Shown piece after piece: positions 11,937 to 22,361 of a stretch of 39,119 bases of DNA; positions within the stretch are counted from its first letter, which is position 1; each line of letters starts with the position of its first letter. The position numbers and the translations under genes were made by a program. The stretch is from Candidatus Saccharimonadota bacterium (lineage in GTDB: Bacteria; Patescibacteriota; Saccharimonadia; Saccharimonadales; JAGQNK01), in the NCBI GenBank assembly GCA_020428105.1, contig JAGQNK010000004.1:1-39119 (forward strand), read 5' to 3'. Under the pieces are notes generated by a model that saw only the letters and a program-made list of their open reading frames with translations, was not told where the DNA came from and did not search any database.

Positions 11937-12791
11937 TTATATTTTTTCGAAACGACTGAGTAGAGCTTGCAGCTCGCTTTCATTGCCATAATAAATCTCT
12001 AGACGGCCACCTTTTGCAGTACGCTTCACTGTGACTTTTGTGTGCAATCTTTGGCTTAATGATTTTGTTTGAGGTGTTTCAACCACTGTCGATTTCTTTG
12101 CTACTTTTGCATCTGCACCTTTTTTGACACTCGTAACGAACTGCTCAGCCTGTCGGACTGTCCATTCATGCCGGATGATATATGCAAGTAATTCAGACTG
12201 TTTTGTATCATCACCTTTTAGGGCCAATATCGATCTAGCGTGGCCTTCGGTGATCAATTCTTCTTGCAGAGCCTTATACGCATCTTTCGGCAACTTCAAT
12301 AGACGTACCGTATTATGGACAGTAGACACGGCCTTACCTAAACGTTCGGCAATTGATTGATAACTAAGATTAAATTGTTGGTGAAGTCTTTCGATGGAAA
12401 GTGCCTGTTCCAGAGGTGATAAATCAACACGCTGGACATTTTCCAAGAGCGCAACCTCTAATTGCTCTAGCTCCTCGCGCTTGCGGATAATCGCTGGAAT
12501 CGAATTAAGACCAGCTATTCGTGCAGCGCGCCACCGCCTCTCGCCAGCAACCAAAATATATTTTTTACCTTTTGGTGAAACAATAATTGGCTGAACAATA
12601 CCAAAATGGGCAATAGAATTCGCTAAACCCTCTAGCGACTTAGTGTCAAAGGTTCTGCGTGGTTGATCCGGATTTGGCTCGATATCATCAATGAATACAT
12701 TTTTTATTCGATCGTTATCCTCTGTCAGAATTGTTTTGTCAAAATCTGTCGGCATTAATACATCAAGACCCTTGCCTAGTCCCTTACTCAC
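11937..12791 (-). CDS. parB: Chromosome partitioning protein ParB
   Basis: CTP-dependent clamp that loads at parS centromere sites near the replication origin. 284 residues. The N-terminal GKGLDVL is the usual ParA-contact peptide. The CTP-binding core has PNPDQPRRTF and GERRWRAAR (about residues 97-105). The helix-turn-helix is in SIAERLGKAVSTVHNTVRLL (about 146-165), and the C-terminal dimer domain follows a basic linker. It starts at GTG 12791, inside the end of parA (8-nt overlap), so the pair is translationally coupled. No convincing parS was found in the window. Confidence 0.95.
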   Translation of the reverse strand: MSKGLGKGLDVLMPTDFDKTILTEDNDRIKNVFIDDIEPNPDQPRRTFDTKSLEGLANSIAHFGIVQPIIVSPKGKKYILVAGERRWRAARIAGLNSIPAIIRKREELEQLEVALLENVQRVDLSPLEQALSIERLHQQFNLSYQSIAERLGKAVSTVHNTVRLLKLPKDAYKALQEELITEGHARSILALKGDDTKQSELLAYIIRHEWTVRQAEQFVTSVKKGADAKVAKKSTVVETPQTKSLSQRLHTKVTVKRTAKGGRLEIYYGNESELQALLSRFEKI

Positions 12792-13539
12792 GGCTTATCA
12801 CCTCCTTAGCTAGTTGCTTGTATGACCTAGCACCCTTAGACCATCTGTCATGTTCTGATATCGGCTTGCCATGACTCGGCGCTTCCGCCAACCTTACATT
12901 CCTAGGGATAATGGTCTTAAATAGCTTGCTCCCAAAATGCTTTTTTAGCTCATTGTATACTTGTTCAGACAGGCTAGTCCGACTATCGAACATAGTAACT
13001 ACGACACCCATAAGCTCTAGATCCGTGTTCAAGCCTCTTCTTATTCTCTGCATTACAGAAAGTAACTGGCTCAGACCCTCTAGTGCGTAATACTCTGCTT
13101 GTACTGGTATCAGCAGATATCTTGCAGCCGATAATGCGTTTACCGTTAGTAGACCTAAAGAAGGTGGGCAATCGATCAGTACATAATCATAATCCAGTCT
13201 TTGTATGACACGACCGAGCAACAGCTCTCGATTTGTTTTACTCACCAACTCAACTTCTGCCGCAGCAAGAGATGTATTTGTTGGAATAATATTCAGATTT
13301 GGTACTTCAGTTTCGATAATCGCCGTCGCAACTTCACTAGGCCTAAACAGTATGTCGTAGCTAGTTGTTTCGACGGATTCTTTCGCTATACCTAACCCAC
13401 TCGAAGCGTTACCCTGAGGATCAAAATCAATTATTAATACTTGCTTACCTGCCTTCGCCAGATAAGCACCCAAATTTATAGCCGTAGTGGTCTTACCAAC
13501 TCCACCCTTCTGATTTAGTATTGCAATAACTTTTGACAC
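12784..13539 (-). CDS. parA: Chromosome partitioning ATPase ParA (Soj)
   Basis: Deviant-Walker-A ATPase that positions ParB-bound origins on the nucleoid. 251 residues. The motif KGGVGKTT is at about residues 10-17, with the signature lysine at the first position. Switch I (DFDPQGNASSGLG) and Walker B (YVLIDCPPSLGLLTVNAL) are intact. There is no N-terminal DNA-binding extension, so it is chromosomal Soj-type rather than plasmid type Ia. The start is GTG 13539, with GAGGA 11 nt upstream. parB overlaps its 3' end. Confidence 0.95.
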   Translation of the reverse strand: MSKVIAILNQKGGVGKTTTAINLGAYLAKAGKQVLIIDFDPQGNASSGLGIAKESVETTSYDILFRPSEVATAIIETEVPNLNIIPTNTSLAAAEVELVSKTNRELLLGRVIQRLDYDYVLIDCPPSLGLLTVNALSAARYLLIPVQAEYYALEGLSQLLSVMQRIRRGLNTDLELMGVVVTMFDSRTSLSEQVYNELKKHFGSKLFKTIIPRNVRLAEAPSHGKPISEHDRWSKGARSYKQLAKEVISRE

Positions 13540-14614: not shown

Positions 14615-17551
14615 TCAGTGAAGCTTGGCTATGCAAATCACTAGGTCTTCAGTATCGACTTTTGCAGCCGTCTTAAACCCGTCCAGCTCATGAACAAACT
14701 CAATAGCCAAGGTTTCTGACTTAATCGTCTCCAAATGTTCATCTATCGCACTTCGCAAATTAGAACTATCAGTAGTAAGACTCAGCCTAATTCGATCATC
14801 GACCTCTAATCCAGCACTCTTCCGTGCACTCTGAATATTTCGAACCACTTCTCGCATGAGACCTTCTCTCTTGAGTTCTGGTGTGATATTCATATCCAGA
14901 GATATGTCATTACCAGTATCATTCACAGTCTTTACATTAAGTTCATCTAGAACAATCGGCAGAAGCTCTTCAAAATCTTCCCCAAGTTGGTCAACAAAAC
15001 CAGGCACACTGATGCTTGAGAGAGGTTGTCGCACCTTGATGCCAGCAGCAGCCCTTTGGCTGAGACCATCATTAATAACCTCCCTAATGTATGACATTCT
15101 CTTGATTACTATATCATCTACCTTACCCAGCTTCGGCCAATCTAGCAAATGCACTGACTCAGCCTCCCCGTCGAGTTTTTGGTACAATTCTTCGGCCAAG
15201 AATGGCGTAAAGGGAGCCAGAGTTATAGATAACCTCAGAAGAACGTAGTGTAACGTCTTGTATGCATCGGCCTTGTCACTGTCATCTTCGCTCTTCCAGA
15301 AGCGACGACGGCTACGGCGTACGTACCAGTTGCTTGCGTCTTCTATAAGCGGCAAGATGTCGCTCAGTGCTTCGGGGATGTTATAGTCATACATGTGACG
15401 CATGACGTGTTGATTGAGTTGGTGGACACGGCTGATAATCCACTTATCAAGCGGGTTTGTGACGACTTCTGGATTGAGGGTAGATTGCTCAGTGGCGTCA
15501 AATTCCCAGCCGTCGACCTCGGCATACATGGTAAAGAAATCGTACATGTTCCATATCATGGTCAGCTTACGTGCCACATCGCCGACATCTTTGTCGTGCA
15601 GTGCGAAATCTTCGCCTTTAAGCAACGGGCTGCTGAGCAACAAAAAACGCAGACTGTCGGCACTAAACTTATCCATCAGCTCATTAGGGTCAGTGTAGTT
15701 ACCAAGACTTTTGCTCATCTTGCGACCATCGTTGCCAGCCAACACACCAGTAGTGATGACGTTGTTAAAGGCGTGTTCACCAAACAAGGCCGTATTTACA
15801 GCATGAACATAGTAAAACCAAGCCCGAACTTGGCCAACATACTCAACAATAAAATCGGCTGGGTAATTTTGCTCAAATTTATCTTTGTTTTCAAACGGAT
15901 AGTGTAGTTGAGCAAATGGCATGCTGCCGCTTTCGAACCAACAGTCGAGGACTTTGTCGACACGCGTAAATTTCTCGCCGTCAACTTCAAAGGTGATATC
16001 GTCAACCCATGGACGATGATAATCGTCGAGCTCAACGCCACTGAGGTCTTTTAACTCCGCATAGCTACCGATGACTCTGACAGTGCCCCGGTCACCTTTC
16101 CAGACCGGCATAGCGGTCGCCCAAAAGCGATCGCGACTAAGGTTCCAGTCGGGGGCTTGCTCAATGTTTTTGGCGAAACGACCATGCTTAAGATGCTCAG
16201 GGAACCAGTTGATGTTTTCGTTTTGTTCGAGCATTAGTGGCTTAGAGCCCTGGATGTCAAAGAACCAGCTCGGAATCGCTCGATACATTATGCGCTGGCC
16301 GCTGCGTGGGTTGAACGGATATTCGTGACGAATGTATTCTATTTTCCAGGCAATACCTTTTTCGATCAGGTCTTTAGCAATGCGCTTGTTATTGTCCCAA
16401 ACTTCGAGACCTTTGTAATTGGTGTCGGTGTAGTAGCCGTTGTCATCGATAACGTGAAATGCATCGATACCATAAATTTTGGCGAGATTAAAGTCGTCTT
16501 CCCCGTAAGCTGGCGCAATATGAACAATTCCTGTACCAGATTTGTGTGACACGAAATCGGCGGCGTAAACCTTGTGAATTGCATCGCTATCTGGCCAGGT
16601 GCTACCGGTGTTGAGTGGCTCATAGCTCTTGCCGACCAGTTCACTGCCGGGTAACTCTCTGACGACTTTGTAGTCGATCAGCTTGTTTCTATCGTCTTTG
16701 AGAACACGATCGAGGGCTTCTTGAGCGATAATGAGCTTGTCGTCACCGACTTCGACTTCGCAGTAAGTCAACTCAGGACTGACGGCTAGCATGAGATTGG
16801 CCGGCAGTGTCCACGGAGTTGTCGTCCAGGCGAGAATATGCACGTCGCTACCGATCAGCTTAAACTTGGTATACAAACTCGGGTCTGTCACGGTCTGGTA
16901 AGCATCGTTGTCCATAGTGACCTCGTTTTTGCTGACCGGCGTGGCAAACTTGGTGTCAAACATCAGCACCTTTTCGCCTTCGTAGATTTTGCCTTTTTCA
17001 TATAGCTCTTTAAATGCCCACCAGACGCTTTCCATGAAATTTTTGTCCATGGTTTTGTAAGCGCCGCTGAAGTCTACCCAGCGACCAATCCTGTCAACGA
17101 CATCTTCCCAGGTAGCGGCATTGGCAACCATCGATTCACGGGCTTTGTTGATATATCTTTCAAGACCAATCGTCGGCAGTATATTCCCATCTTTGTCAAG
17201 CGGCGCAGTGGCATTATTGCCAGTAGCAATTTGCCTACGATCGGTGATGCCGAGTTGTTTTTCGACAAAGTTTTCGGCCGGCAAACCATGTGTATCCCAA
17301 CCCCACACCCGCTCGACACGCTTGCCTTTCATCGTCCAGTAGCGTGGTACAGTATCTTTGACGATCGAGCTGAGGAGTGTGCCGTGATGTGGCACGCCTG
17401 TGATAAACGGTGGCCCGTCATAAAACACATAAGCGTCACTAGCTGGTCGCTGGTCTACAGACTTCTCAAAAGTTTTGTTTTCCTTCCAGCGCTTCGCCCA
17501 ATCTTTTTCATATTCTAACGCTCGTCTTCTCGTACCGTGCTTAAATTTCAT
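14615..17551 (-). CDS. ileS: Isoleucyl-tRNA synthetase
   Basis: Charges tRNA-Ile with isoleucine in the cytoplasm. 978 residues. The HIGH motif appears as HHGT in PFITGVPHHGTLL (about residues 48-60). The CP1 editing domain follows, with THGLPAE and TTTPWTLPANL. The KMSKS motif is in GRKMSKSLGNY (about 608-618), and the anticodon-binding helical domain is at about 700-850. The start ATG overlaps the stop of the phosphatase gene (17548-17551), with AAGGAG 7 nt upstream. Expression is expected to depend on the T-box leader about 800 nt upstream, so uncharged tRNA-Ile should raise it. Confidence 0.97.
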   Translation of the reverse strand: MKFKHGTRRRALEYEKDWAKRWKENKTFEKSVDQRPASDAYVFYDGPPFITGVPHHGTLLSSIVKDTVPRYWTMKGKRVERVWGWDTHGLPAENFVEKQLGITDRRQIATGNNATAPLDKDGNILPTIGLERYINKARESMVANAATWEDVVDRIGRWVDFSGAYKTMDKNFMESVWWAFKELYEKGKIYEGEKVLMFDTKFATPVSKNEVTMDNDAYQTVTDPSLYTKFKLIGSDVHILAWTTTPWTLPANLMLAVSPELTYCEVEVGDDKLIIAQEALDRVLKDDRNKLIDYKVVRELPGSELVGKSYEPLNTGSTWPDSDAIHKVYAADFVSHKSGTGIVHIAPAYGEDDFNLAKIYGIDAFHVIDDNGYYTDTNYKGLEVWDNNKRIAKDLIEKGIAWKIEYIRHEYPFNPRSGQRIMYRAIPSWFFDIQGSKPLMLEQNENINWFPEHLKHGRFAKNIEQAPDWNLSRDRFWATAMPVWKGDRGTVRVIGSYAELKDLSGVELDDYHRPWVDDITFEVDGEKFTRVDKVLDCWFESGSMPFAQLHYPFENKDKFEQNYPADFIVEYVGQVRAWFYYVHAVNTALFGEHAFNNVITTGVLAGNDGRKMSKSLGNYTDPNELMDKFSADSLRFLLLSSPLLKGEDFALHDKDVGDVARKLTMIWNMYDFFTMYAEVDGWEFDATEQSTLNPEVVTNPLDKWIISRVHQLNQHVMRHMYDYNIPEALSDILPLIEDASNWYVRRSRRRFWKSEDDSDKADAYKTLHYVLLRLSITLAPFTPFLAEELYQKLDGEAESVHLLDWPKLGKVDDIVIKRMSYIREVINDGLSQRAAAGIKVRQPLSSISVPGFVDQLGEDFEELLPIVLDELNVKTVNDTGNDISLDMNITPELKREGLMREVVRNIQSARKSAGLEVDDRIRLSLTTDSSNLRSAIDEHLETIKSETLAIEFVHELDGFKTAAKVDTEDLVICIAKLH

Positions 17552-18336
17552 AATAAATCTCCTTTCAAATACTCAACTATTTCATCATGAACGGTGCCAT
17601 TGCTCACAATCGCACCCTTAATGTCTCTATCATATCGCTGTTCATCACCAAATAAATCCGTAACCTTACCACCGGCTTCTTCAACTATTACCTTTGCGGC
17701 TGCAATATCAACATTCTTGCCCTTTGTGCCCGAAAAAATACTTGCCACAAACTCACCTCTCGATACTAGGGCAGCCATATGGGTTGTGCTGCCAGGCGAC
17801 AGCAGGTAAACTCTTTTGTCTTTTGAAAGTTTTACAAGTGAAGTTATAACTTGGTACTCAGCTTCTGGCCACCAATCAAAATTTATTCTAGATTTTTCGT
17901 TTAAGATTTCTTGGCTCACACTAATTTTATCGTTATTACAAAATGCGCCTGAACCAACTTGCGCATGATAAAGCCTATCGCTTATAAAATCATAGATTAC
18001 GCCAAGTTTAGGCGCACCATCTATAACTAGAGCTATGGAGAAAACTGACACAGCGAGTCCCATTGCAAACGGGTTAGTGCCATCAATTGGGTCACAAACC
18101 CACAGCCTGTCAGATTCCTTGTTGTGCGACTGTTCTTCGCCATCTAAACCGTCTTCTGGATACTTTTTGATAATTCGATCAATCACCATTTGGTTAATCT
18201 CTTTGTCAGCAATTGTGACAATAGTATCGTCTTCTTTAAATTCAGGTTCAGGAGATTTACCAAAATACTTTCGCATAATCTCACCCGCTTCAAGTGCCAA
18301 CTTTTTAGCAAACTCTAACTCTTCATGAAGCATCAT
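17548..18336 (-). CDS. Inositol monophosphatase-family phosphatase (IMPase / CysQ-like)
   Basis: 262 residues. The metal-dependent phosphatase fold has the Mg-binding motif DPIDGTNPFAMG (about residues 85-96), preceded by DGLDGEEQ with its conserved Glu. The C-terminal WDxAA box appears as NVDIAAAK (about 202-209), keeping the Asp. Likely substrates are inositol phosphate, a related sugar phosphate or PAP, and sequence does not separate these. The start is ATG 18336 with AGAAAGG 5 nt upstream; an in-frame extension further upstream would run through the T-box terminator and is rejected. It is the first gene of the T-box operon and overlaps ileS by 4 nt. Confidence 0.9.
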   Translation of the reverse strand: MMLHEELEFAKKLALEAGEIMRKYFGKSPEPEFKEDDTIVTIADKEINQMVIDRIIKKYPEDGLDGEEQSHNKESDRLWVCDPIDGTNPFAMGLAVSVFSIALVIDGAPKLGVIYDFISDRLYHAQVGSGAFCNNDKISVSQEILNEKSRINFDWWPEAEYQVITSLVKLSKDKRVYLLSPGSTTHMAALVSRGEFVASIFSGTKGKNVDIAAAKVIVEEAGGKVTDLFGDEQRYDRDIKGAIVSNGTVHDEIVEYLKGDLL

Positions 18337-18354: not shown

Positions 18355-18562
18355 AAAAATTAAAAGCACTTCTTTTAGACTATCGGAATCCTGCGTTTTG
18401 CAGGACGGTACCATCCGATTTCTAAAAGAAGTGCTTAACACTTTTTTAGCTCTTGTTTGACGGCTATAACGGGCTTACCCGGCAAGGTCTACTTATCTAA
18501 TGACTTTCTTCTCGCAGCTTCGTGGTTGATAGCCACTCATCTGATGACAGAATGCTTTTATA
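18355..18562 (-). promoter_or_regulatory. T-box riboswitch leader, predicted isoleucine-specific, upstream of the phosphatase-ileS operon
   Basis: The parts below are in transcript order on the minus strand. A short hairpin, GTGG-CTATCAA-CCAC (18522-18536), carries ATC (18528-18530), an Ile codon, in its loop, like the ultrashort Stem I of actinobacterial ileS T-boxes. A linker with CGGG-TAAG-CCCG (about 18469-18480) follows, in the position of Stem II. Next is a competing hairpin, CTAAAAAAGTG with CACTTCTTTTAG (18422-18449). The antiterminator has ATCGGA (18414-18419) paired to TCCGAT (18382-18387), the bulge TGGTACCG (18406-18413), and TCCTGC (18400-18405) paired to GCAGGA (18389-18394). 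TGGT can pair with the ACCA end of uncharged tRNA-Ile. The terminator stem AAGCACTTCTTTTAGA (18421-18436) pairs with 18364-18379 over 16 bp and is followed by TTTAATTTTT. Confidence 0.82.
18364..18436 (-). terminator. Regulated terminator of the T-box leader
   Basis: A 16-bp perfect stem between 18421-18436 and 18364-18379 encloses the antiterminator element. On the minus strand a U-rich tract (18355-18363) follows, about 18 nt before the phosphatase start codon. Confidence 0.75.
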
Positions 18563-18568
18563 TCCTAT

Positions 18569-18598
18569 ATTGTATCGCAAATGACGTATATTTGACAA
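18569..18598 (-). promoter_or_regulatory. Promoter of the T-box-controlled operon
   Basis: On the minus strand TTGTCA (18593-18598), an 18-nt spacer and TACAAT (18569-18574). Transcription would start near 18562, just upstream of the specifier hairpin. It begins right after the stop codon of the thioredoxin-like gene. Confidence 0.65.
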
Positions 18599-18931: not shown

Positions 18932-21685
18932 CTAGCTACAACCTGTAGTGCTACCGCAACTTGTGCAGACATAACAGCTACCTGAACGCTGTGTCTGGTT
19001 ACCGCAGTTATAACACAGAGGAGCAGTATCTTCTGTCTTACCATCAATCTTTGGCTCTTCTGGCTGTACTGAAATCTCGCTAACTGTACCAGAGACCTCT
19101 GTTGTGCTATCATTCTCGGTCTCTTCCAGTAAGCTAACCTGCTCATCTGGCATATCTTCAATAGAGGCTAGGCCTAGCTCTAGTCGATCATCAAACGACA
19201 GGTAATCCAATGCCAACCGACGAACAATATAATCTGTGATTGAACTAGCCGTACGAATCTCTGTGTCATCTGTAATGCCGGCAGGCGCAAAACTTGTGCC
19301 CCGAAGTGTCTTTACATAACTCTTTAGTGGCACGCCATATTGCAACCCGTGGCTTACAGATATAGCGAATGAGTCCATCAACCCTGACAATGTAGAGCCT
19401 TGCTTTGATATGCTGACAAATAACTCTCCTGGGGTTCCGTCATCATACTCACCTACCGTAAAGTAACCGTCTAAGTCTGCGATCTCGAAGTGGTAGGTAC
19501 GGCTATTGCGAACTCTTGGTAACTTCCTACGTACGGTAGATTTTACAATTATCTTATCTTGAGGTGCGGTATCGCCAACCAATTTAGTCTCAGCCTTATC
19601 CTCATCTTTCTTGGCCATCGATAACGGTTGAGCTACTTTACAGTTGTCTCGATATATAGCAACTGCCTTCAGGCCTAACTTCCATGACTCCATATGCAAC
19701 TGCTCAATCTCTTCTACTGTTGCATCTTCAGGCATATTCACGGTCTTGCTAATTGCACCGGACAAAAATGGCTGTACTGCAGACATCATCTTTACGTGAC
19801 CCATGTAGTGGATAGCGTTGTCACCCATAGAACATGCAAACACCGGCTCGTGCTCATTCTTTAATCCGGGCGCACCAATTATTGTCTTTTCTACATCGAT
19901 ATAATCAATAATTTTGTCTATTTGAGCTTTTGTGTAGCCCAAAACCTTCAGAGCTCGCGGAACCGTCTGGTTTACTATACTCATCGTACCGCCGCCGACT
20001 AGCTTCTTGAGCTTCACTAGTCCCAAATCTGGTTCAATACCAGTTGTGTCGCAGTCCATCATCAACCCGATAGTACCAGTCGGAGCAAGCACACTAGCCT
20101 GGGAATTGCGTACACCATAAACTTCACCCAACTCAGCTGCCTCATCCCAAGCCGCAGCCGCAGCACTCAATAGCTCCTCGGACACTAAACTAGCATCAAT
20201 CTTCGACACCTCTGCCCTGTGCATGCGCAAAACATTCAACATGCCTTCGCGGTCTTTGTGGAAACCTGCAAACGGTCCAACACGATTAGCAATCTTTGCG
20301 CTTGTTGCATAGGCTTGGCCGGTCATAAGCGCCGTTATTGCAGCAGCTTGTGCACGACCTTCGTCTGAATCATATGGTAATCCTTGAGCCATTAACAGCG
20401 CACCTAAATTTGCGTAGCCGAGACCTAATTCACGATATGCTTTAGCGTTTTTAGTAATGTTTTCTGTTGGATATTCACTATAACCGACAAGTATTTCTTG
20501 CGCTGTAAACACAAGTTCTACTGTGTGTATGAACGATTTGATATCAAATGTACCATCGTCATTAAGGTATTTCAGTAAGTTGATTGATGCTAGGTTACAA
20601 GCAGAATTATCTAGATGCATGTATTCGGAACAAGGGTTACTTCCGTTTATACGACCCGCATTAGGCGTAGTGTGCCATTTGTTAATAGTCGTATCAAACT
20701 GCATACCCGGATCAGCGCATTCCCAAGCAGACTCAGCAATCTGACGGAACAAATCACGAGCCTTTAATGTCCTGACAGTCTTACCGGTCGTCACAGCTTT
20801 GAGGTCCCAATTTTCGTCGTTGGCAACTGCTTGCATGAACTCGTCCGTTACACGTACCGAGTTATTTGCATTTTGATACTGCACAGAGAAGGCGTCCTTG
20901 CCATCCAGACTCATATCAAAACCAGCTTCCTGCAAAGCCCGTGCCTTACGCTCCTCGATAGCCTTTGCCCAGATGAACTCTTCTACGTCAGGGTGATCTG
21001 CATTCAAGATAACCATCTTTGCAGCTCGACGCGTCTTACCACCACTCTTGATTGCACCAGCCGATGCGTCGGCACCTCTCATGAAGCTCATTGGACCGGA
21101 TGCCGTACCAGCACTCTTGCCAAGTTTCTCGGCCGATGAGCGTATTGAGCTCAGATTAATTCCCGAACCAGAGCCACCCTTAAATATCATGCCCTCTTCT
21201 TTGTACCAGTTCAAAATTGCAGGCATGGTGTCTTCAACCGCCAAGATAAAGCAAGCACTTGCTTGCTGGGATCGTTCAGGTACACCAATGTTAAACCACA
21301 CTGGAGAATTAAATGCTGCCCTTTGAGTAGCAAGAATATATTTCAACTCCTCTCGGTAATCCTCGGCTTCGGCCTCTGACTCAAAATACCCTTCTTGGAG
21401 TCCTTGACGAGCTACGGTGTCTACCACTCGATCTATCAGATGCTTGAGCGAACTTTCACGCCCAGATGTCCCTGGAGTACCACTAAAATACTTCTGCGCA
21501 ACTATGTTTATGGCATTCAGTGACCAGCCTTCAGGGAATTCTACGCCCTTCTGTTCAAACACTGGCTTTCCGGTCATAGGATTCATGATCACTGAGTCTC
21601 GTTTAACCCAACTGATTTCCTCATATGCCTTGCTCTTAGGGGCTGTTAATAACCGCCTGTGCCCCAGGATTGTTGTTTGTCCCAT
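18932..21685 (-). CDS. nrdJ: Vitamin B12-dependent (class II) ribonucleoside-diphosphate reductase
   Basis: Reduces ribonucleotides to deoxyribonucleotides using adenosylcobalamin to make the thiyl radical. 917 residues. An active-site Cys lies in QQASACFIL (about residue 143). The NPCSE motif (about 349-353) carries the second conserved Cys. Substrate-loop motifs VLAPTGTIGLMMDCDTTG (about 535-552) are intact. A TSCPD-type domain follows at about 700-830 (GYFTVGEYDDGTPGEL...). The tail is a Cys-rich zinc-ribbon-like CYNC...CYVCTSCG...GCS, likely the reductant-accepting arm. The ATG is preceded by GTGAGGG at about 9 nt. nrdR lies upstream on the same strand, across 202 nt. Confidence 0.96.
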   Translation of the reverse strand: MGQTTILGHRRLLTAPKSKAYEEISWVKRDSVIMNPMTGKPVFEQKGVEFPEGWSLNAINIVAQKYFSGTPGTSGRESSLKHLIDRVVDTVARQGLQEGYFESEAEAEDYREELKYILATQRAAFNSPVWFNIGVPERSQQASACFILAVEDTMPAILNWYKEEGMIFKGGSGSGINLSSIRSSAEKLGKSAGTASGPMSFMRGADASAGAIKSGGKTRRAAKMVILNADHPDVEEFIWAKAIEERKARALQEAGFDMSLDGKDAFSVQYQNANNSVRVTDEFMQAVANDENWDLKAVTTGKTVRTLKARDLFRQIAESAWECADPGMQFDTTINKWHTTPNAGRINGSNPCSEYMHLDNSACNLASINLLKYLNDDGTFDIKSFIHTVELVFTAQEILVGYSEYPTENITKNAKAYRELGLGYANLGALLMAQGLPYDSDEGRAQAAAITALMTGQAYATSAKIANRVGPFAGFHKDREGMLNVLRMHRAEVSKIDASLVSEELLSAAAAAWDEAAELGEVYGVRNSQASVLAPTGTIGLMMDCDTTGIEPDLGLVKLKKLVGGGTMSIVNQTVPRALKVLGYTKAQIDKIIDYIDVEKTIIGAPGLKNEHEPVFACSMGDNAIHYMGHVKMMSAVQPFLSGAISKTVNMPEDATVEEIEQLHMESWKLGLKAVAIYRDNCKVAQPLSMAKKDEDKAETKLVGDTAPQDKIIVKSTVRRKLPRVRNSRTYHFEIADLDGYFTVGEYDDGTPGELFVSISKQGSTLSGLMDSFAISVSHGLQYGVPLKSYVKTLRGTSFAPAGITDDTEIRTASSITDYIVRRLALDYLSFDDRLELGLASIEDMPDEQVSLLEETENDSTTEVSGTVSEISVQPEEPKIDGKTEDTAPLCYNCGNQTQRSGSCYVCTSCGSTTGCS

Positions 21686-21887
21686 TGTAGTGTACCCTCA
21701 CTTTTACCGGTACCGAAGAAACCGTTTCTGCGGCAACCATTTGTTAGATTTTATAATTTTTTATTTAGAGTCCTTGGTGATGCCGCTCTCTAGCACCACC
21801 GATTGATACTCTCCTCAACACTCAAGACTTCACCGGCAATAAACGCTGCCCCGCGAGCTTTAGTATCAAGGAGAGATGTCAAGCCTT
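21686..21887 (-). other. 202-nt nrdR-nrdJ spacer with potential mutually exclusive pairings
   Basis: No recognised riboswitch. On the minus strand TTGATACT (21862-21869) can pair with AGTATCAA (21803-21810), while the adjacent CTCTCC (21870-21875) can pair with GGAGAG (21809-21814). The two pairings cannot form together. A GGTGGTGC/GCATCACC hairpin (about 21778-21802) and an AT-rich TATAAA (21750-21755) follow. GTACC/GGTAC could enclose the region just before the nrdJ ribosome binding site. A 30-codon frame from TTG 21882 also exists here. It could be a leader, a small gene or neither. Confidence 0.35.
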
Positions 21888-22361
21888 CTACGACTTGACG
21901 GGGTTAACCTTCCTCTCACGAATCTGAAGTAGTTCATGCTCAAAGCCAGCGATATCTTTAAATCTTCGATAAACGCTCGCAAAGCGAACATATGCAACTT
22001 CGTTGAGTGGCGCAAGACGCTCCATCACCATATCGCCAATTTTGGCCGTTGGTGTCTCTTGTTCGCCACATGCATGTATGTGCTGCTCTATATCAGTAAC
22101 CAATCGCTCAAGCTGCAAGCTTGTTACCTGAGTCTTTTCACAAGCTCGATACAAACCAGCCAGTAGTTTATCACGGTTAAACAGCTCCCTTGTGCTGTCG
22201 TTTTTGATGACAATTATCTGTGGCCGTTCGATACGCTCATAAGTAGTAAAACGATACCGGCAGTTAGTGCATGCACGACGACGACGAATTGCATCTCCTT
22301 CAGATACCTCGCGTGATTCAATGACCTTAGTATCAGCCTTCTGACACTGTCCACACTTCAT
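21888..22361 (-). CDS. nrdR: Transcriptional repressor NrdR
   Basis: ATP/dATP-sensing repressor of ribonucleotide reductase genes. 157 residues. The N-terminal zinc ribbon has CGQCQKAD...CTNCRYRF (Cys about residues 3, 6, 31, 34). The ATP-cone domain follows (about 46-136), with VIKNDSTRELFNRDKL. A short basic tail RERKVNPVKS ends the protein. AAGGAGG lies 9 nt before the ATG. It precedes nrdJ, its expected target, on the same strand. Weak NrdR-box-like palindromes lie upstream, between it and ftsZ. Confidence 0.96.
   Translation of the reverse strand: MKCGQCQKADTKVIESREVSEGDAIRRRRACTNCRYRFTTYERIERPQIIVIKNDSTRELFNRDKLLAGLYRACEKTQVTSLQLERLVTDIEQHIHACGEQETPTAKIGDMVMERLAPLNEVAYVRFASVYRRFKDIAGFEHELLQIRERKVNPVKS

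Follow-up and report, generated by a model that had tools for sequence, protein, structure and literature searches.

A predicted isoleucine T-box with an ultrashort Stem I and a terminator that shares a strand with Stem III upstream of ileS in Saccharibacteria

We analyzed a 39,119-nt contig of a Candidatus Saccharimonadota bacterium (JAGQNK010000004.1; hereafter, the window), the minus strand of which carries a leader region (18355–18598) followed by a two-gene operon. The first gene (17548–18336, minus strand) belongs to the inositol-monophosphatase (IMPase) family (PF00459, E = 5.9 × 10−45) and is preceded by a Shine-Dalgarno (SD) sequence at about 18348–18342 of the minus strand. It overlaps by 4 nt with ileS, which encodes isoleucyl-tRNA synthetase (14615–17551, minus strand). 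An earlier note on this DNA had described a phosphatase-ileS operon 3′ of the leader in a genome resembling those of the candidate phyla radiation (CPR). Both descriptions are borne out: a PF00459 gene and then ileS follow the leader, and the best 80 IleS relatives in named genomes are from Candidatus Saccharibacteria, together with some records labeled only as 'bacterium' or 'Patescibacteria'. A parA/parB pair lies downstream of ileS (11937–13539), and genes for a class II ribonucleotide reductase and nrdR lie upstream of the leader (18932–22361). Among relatives, the gap between the T-box and ileS exceeds 150 nt in 25 of 55 cases and often holds one small, varied gene (GNAT, NUDIX, SDR, methyladenine glycosylase, or GDSL hydrolase); this place is taken by the IMPase-family phosphatase in the window.

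Read from its 5′ end on the minus strand, the region opens with a putative sigma-70–like promoter (TTGTCA-18-TACAAT, 18569–18598), which scored 10/12 in a consensus scan that speaks for its placement only; the same kind of scan gave four promoter-like sites in the region versus 0.7 ± 0.7 in shuffles. Stem I (18516–18556) is ultrashort, comprising a base (AGC/GCT), an inserted small hairpin (TCTG-TCAT-CAGA, 18551–18540), a K-turn–like junction (TGA/GA), and a 4-bp stem (GTGG/CCAC) with a 7-nt loop. The specifier hairpin reads directly as GTGG-CTATCAA-CCAC (18536–18522) and presents the isoleucine codon ATC (18528–18530) in its apical loop, with no sequence left for an elbow-binding (IDTM) module. 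Stem II follows (18482–18515), with S-turn sequences AAGAA and AGTAGA and a covarying lower helix, and then a Stem IIA/B pseudoknot (18461–18481; CGGG..CCCG plus a crossing helix). A purine string, AAGAG (18454–18450), leads into Stem III (CTAAAAAAGTG-TTAAG-CACTTCTTTTAG), the two together spanning 18422–18454, and an AA linker with invariant columns (18420–18421) joins Stem III to the antiterminator (18382–18419). The latter consists of helices A1 (ATCGGA/TCCGAT) and A2 (GTCCTGC/GCAGGAT, with a G-U pair at its base) and contains the T-box bulge TGGTACC (UGGUACC; 18413–18407). A U-rich tract, TTTTAATTTTT (18355–18365), comes after a 16-bp stem. The promoter, ATC-loop hairpin, two-helix antiterminator, 16-bp stem, and U-rich tract thus all lie on the minus strand where the first reading had put them, and the Stem I that it called ultrashort is so, with a 4-bp stem, a 7-nt loop, and no room for an IDTM.

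At gathering scores, an Rfam scan returned no match anywhere in the window. In a permissive scan, the T-box model RF00230, which had been proposed as a check, aligned over its full length (1–219 of 219) to 18557–18381 with E = 1.2 × 10−7, and this was its only match in the 910-kb genome; its score, at 39.9 bits, stayed under the gathering score of 93. Weak matches to SAM-II and mir-955 in the window were rejected as noise. The gathering score of RF00230 was reached in none of 393 genomes of the class, and matches at E ≤ 0.01 were found in 100 of them. We built a covariance model from Saccharibacteria ileS leaders (R1), which found matches in 263 of the 393 class genomes at a threshold of 10−5. 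It scored the window leader at 123.8 bits (E = 2.4 × 10−35), a value that is not independent because this leader was among the training sequences. In the genus-mate genome, RF00230 had implied that the leader was absent; this is false, as the own-class model finds it there at 97.5 bits.

The sub-threshold Rfam score would suit a fold arisen by chance or the degenerate remnant of a T-box. However, the minus strand folds with a minimum free energy (MFE) of −64.9 kcal/mol (z = −5.0; none of 200 shuffles as good). Together with the covariation described below, this z-score rules out a chance fold, and with the wide presence in the class and the R1 score it makes either version of this explanation extremely improbable. 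The leader is a T-box by every feature that we examined except the Rfam score.

For comparison among relatives, we searched fetched loci for a T-box core accompanied by a partner strand for A1 and by a specifier hairpin of the form nnATCnn, which yielded 78 distinct leaders; Stem II, IIB, III, and A2 played no part in this filter. All 78 precede ileS (55 loci found via IleS and 23 confirmed by tblastn). ATC is invariant among them, as the filter required, and so is TGG; no other codon occupied the specifier loop in any of the Saccharibacteria ileS leaders inspected. In an alignment of 51 leaders, the ATC columns are again invariant, and the 34 pairs counted across Stem I, II, IIA/B, III, A1, and A2 are paired in 94.5% of cells. 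Two-sided changes occur in 30 of these 34 pairs, with 413 double-change cells versus 129 ± 9 after shuffling, and sliding the partners by 1 to 3 columns as a control brought pairing down to 31 to 45%.

The individual elements show the same pattern. The 4-bp stem of Stem I is 100% paired among 51 relatives, with all four pairs covarying, and its variants keep their pairing (GTGG/CCAC, GCGG/CCGC, GCAG/CTGC, GAGG/CCTC, GTCG/CGAC, and CCGA/TCGG); note that the filter left the sequence of this stem free but partly imposed its constant pairing. The lower helix of Stem II is 98.8% paired (5/5 pairs covarying), with nearly invariant AGAA and TAGA columns. Stem IIA is an invariant CG/CG, and IIB covaries, with 67% pairing in an alignment block that is misaligned in part. 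Stem III, present as a hairpin in 77 of the 78 leaders, is 95.5% paired across the 51 (5/5 covarying), A1 is 99.7% paired (5/6 covarying), and A2 is 97.1% paired. The purines that flank Stem III in the window (AAGAG...AA) fall in columns conserved among relatives and fit the RRRxG-Stem III-AA motif known from solved T-boxes (PMC7583486). The earlier note had suggested such an alignment and had staked its reading of an isoleucine T-box on a conserved specifier and TGGN. Homologous leaders give strong covariance support to both the antiterminator and the specifier hairpin, ATC and TGG are invariant in those parsed, and the reading is upheld by an ATC specifier before ileS and a covarying antiterminator.

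One feature adds to that description. In the MFE structure, 18436–18421 pairs with 18379–18364, and the resulting 16-bp terminator stem encloses the intact antiterminator. Judged by MFE folding and covariation, the 5′ strand of this stem (18421–18436) is made of the Stem III loop, the Stem III 3′ strand, and one linker A, and its 3′ strand (18364–18379) nearly duplicates the 5′ strand of Stem III: CTAAAAAAGTG recurs almost unchanged in the downstream strand CTAAAAGAAGTG. The predicted terminator therefore reuses the 3′ strand of Stem III and not that of the antiterminator. In the textbook arrangement, it is A1/A2 that contribute to the terminator, their 3′ strands becoming its 5′ strand (PMC7583486). 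We rejected a textbook terminator from the A1 3′ strand for the window, as GATTCCGAT has no downstream complement and such a stem never formed in MFE structures. A simple terminator scan missed the window terminator because it allows only 3- to 8-nt loops.

Among the 78 leaders, 59 are predicted to have a terminator of the enclosing type, 18 (from other Saccharibacteria) the textbook pairing, and one a separate hairpin. In 47 leaders, the enclosing helix is 92.8% paired, with two-sided changes in 10 of 12 pairs and 110 double-change cells versus 32.9 ± 9.1 after shuffling; slid controls were 47 to 63% paired. Terminator strands pair better with their own partners (−14.9 kcal/mol) than with swapped ones (−8.1 kcal/mol). 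The extra small hairpin of the window leader lies exactly 3 nt before the specifier stem, as does such a hairpin in 26 of the 59 enclosing-type leaders (44%, versus 10% in shuffles) but in only one of the 18 textbook-type leaders.

In the window, the ON fold (Stem III with A1/A2) has a predicted energy of −25.4 kcal/mol and the OFF fold −45.4 kcal/mol, MFE values that ignore tRNA and RNA polymerase, and the predicted MFE structure flips once the terminator 3′ strand is transcribed. Because the OFF fold is 20 kcal/mol more stable, readthrough must be kinetic. The same difference would suit an enclosing stem that is always formed as a stabilized antiterminator hairpin, which would make the leader a constitutive or partial terminator free of tRNA control. 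Against this, selection acts on the specifier as well as on the T-box bulge, the S-turn, the IIA/B pseudoknot, and Stem III, the last of which covaries although it would be useless to a constitutive terminator. We consider such constitutive termination very unlikely.

The placement of the U-tract bears on the level at which the leader would act. The first run of at least four T's begins 9 to 16 nt after A1 in 56 of 59 enclosing-type and 18 of 18 textbook-type leaders (74/77), versus 1 to 2% in shuffles, and the SD follows the start of the U-tract at a median distance of 15 nt in the enclosing type and 13 nt in the textbook type. This placement, as read from the sequences, favors transcription termination. 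Translational control, in which the switch would hide the SD and leave transcription unended, has the architecture of Stem I and Stem II on its side, which is the same as that described for actinobacterial ileS T-boxes (PMC7583486; PMC1262725). These T-boxes are translational (PMC1262725), and an ultrashort Stem I is described as a hallmark of translational T-boxes. Transcriptional ones, in turn, are held to depend in general on a Stem I that is long and carries the elbow-binding motif (PMC7583486), a rule that counts against the transcriptional reading on kinetic grounds, given the minimal Stem I found here. Nevertheless, a U-tract follows the 16-bp stem of the window and the SD is not part of that stem, which led us to reject translational control for this leader, and the positions of U-tract and SD across relatives speak the same way. 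By MFE, more than half of the SD is paired in 12 of the 57 enclosing-type leaders and in 8 of the 18 textbook-type ones, counts that lack a pairing control and weigh little either way. Overall, we regard translational control as quite unlikely.

The leader is very probably a T-box that senses tRNA-Ile and regulates the phosphatase-ileS operon by terminating transcription. The earlier note had likewise proposed termination in place of the translational mode, and the stem with its U-tract and the position of the SD outside that stem are consistent with this. The anatomy, specifier, and covariation are observed directly. From them we infer tRNA binding, termination, and an order of strand exchange, as follows. 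Stem I, braced by the Stem II S-turn, would offer AUC in its apical loop to the GAU anticodon, and the UGGU bulge would pair with the ACCA end of uncharged tRNA-Ile. This pairing would hold together the discriminator (AAGAG, Stem III, AA, and A1/A2). When tRNA-Ile is charged or absent, the downstream near copy would start from the AA linker and displace the 5′ strand of Stem III, and the resulting 16-bp stem and U's around an intact antiterminator would act as the terminator. The tRNA-Ile(GAU) of the genus-mate genome has A73 and an encoded CCA, giving a 3′ end of ACCA. Several searches of the assembly of the window's own genome found no tRNA-Ile(GAU). This is probably an assembly gap, likely a missing rRNA operon, because the genus-mate tRNA-Ile(GAU) adjoins tRNA-Ala(TGC).

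Related leaders extend beyond the class. At a threshold of 10−3, R1 found matches in 128 of 380 genomes of the phylum, about 95 of them outside the class. In CPR genomes outside Saccharimonadia, T-boxes with an ultrashort or short Stem I lie upstream of ileS, valS, thrS, lysS, tyrS, and asp/asnS-type genes, with up to three per genome. We fetched 60 CPR loci from beyond the class, and in general the codon in their Stem I agrees with the gene that follows (ATC with ileS, GTC with valS, ACC with thrS, and GAC or AAC with asp/asnS-type genes); these readings come from inspection of ranked candidate hairpins, and several loci are ambiguous. Roughly 17 of the 60 have an enclosing-type terminator by MFE prediction alone. 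We consider it somewhat more likely than not that T-boxes across the CPR form a lineage whose bistable element is Stem III instead of the antiterminator. One Stem III strand would be handed between upstream and downstream near copies, tRNA would control transcription by way of a Stem I that is minimal and elbow-blind, and the antiterminator would never be unfolded.

Other arrangements also occur among these CPR loci. Ten lack a Stem III hairpin and read AAG-[3–6 nt]-AA-A1 (L147, L149, L154, L159, L162, L163, L166, L176, L182, and L183); in several Stem III–less loci, a short stretch (TCCAC, CACC) pairs instead with the strand before the U-tract. Four loci, mostly with a GTC specifier (L161, L167, L173, and L200), have a short local hairpin and U-tract directly after A1 that overlap neither A1 nor Stem III and show no evident mutually exclusive pairing. 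By inspection, Stem I carries AAC (Asn) upstream of three aspartyl-tRNA synthetase genes (L168, L175, and L191), one of which is of the tRNA(Asn)-charging type (NF003483).

The leader shares features with both known classes of T-box. With the class II ileS T-boxes of Actinobacteria (Mycobacterium tuberculosis and Nocardia farcinica), it has in common the apical-loop AUC, minimal Stem I, Stem II S-turn, IIA/B pseudoknot, T-box bulge, and ileS target (PMC7583486; PMC1262725). However, those T-boxes are described as sequestering the SD, whereas the Saccharibacteria leader has a covarying stem and U-tract before the SD and a switching strand shared with Stem III. With the transcriptional class I T-boxes of Firmicutes (RF00230), it has in common A1/A2 with a UGGNACC bulge, an intrinsic-terminator readout, and an aminoacyl-tRNA synthetase target. 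In class I, Stem I is generally long and bears an elbow-binding motif, and the A1/A2 3′ strand serves as the terminator 5′ strand (PMC7583486); in contrast, the Saccharibacteria leader has a minimal Stem I, and its predicted terminator uses the 3′ strand of Stem III and surrounds an intact A1/A2. It thus departs from both classes, being without the translational output of the ultrashort class and without the terminator strand of the transcriptional class. The ileS T-boxes of Deinococcus and Chloroflexi (Wels et al. 2008, PMC2494555) share the target and likewise occur outside Firmicutes; these may be the nearest relatives of the Saccharibacteria leaders.

T-boxes have been reported mainly in Firmicutes and Actinobacteria, with a few in Chloroflexi, Deinococcus, and Proteobacteria (PMC2494555). 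The class II model of TBDB was run on Actinobacteria and on class I matches with a truncated Stem I (PMC7778990). Truncated Stem I's beyond Actinobacteria may therefore have been met in passing, and CPR leaders that score under the threshold would likely be missed. A 2024 review of Patescibacteria mentions riboswitches only as tools (PMC11665869). Our literature search found no report joining T-boxes with Saccharibacteria or the CPR, weak evidence given that most subscription papers lay outside the search; to that extent, it agrees with the earlier note, which knew of no characterized T-box in this group.

Our findings would contradict the prevailing rule that a T-box acting on transcription requires a long Stem I able to bind the tRNA elbow, and they offer a switching topology with Stem III as the readout of charging. 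This Stem III hand-over is the most testable claim of our analysis. Close relatives show both terminator topologies on aptamers of one kind, which makes the role of the antiterminator in T-box switching directly testable. Our analysis also extends tRNA-sensing riboswitches to the CPR, where little is known about gene control, and suggests that these bacteria, which depend on a host, would tie the expression of ileS to their supply of isoleucine.
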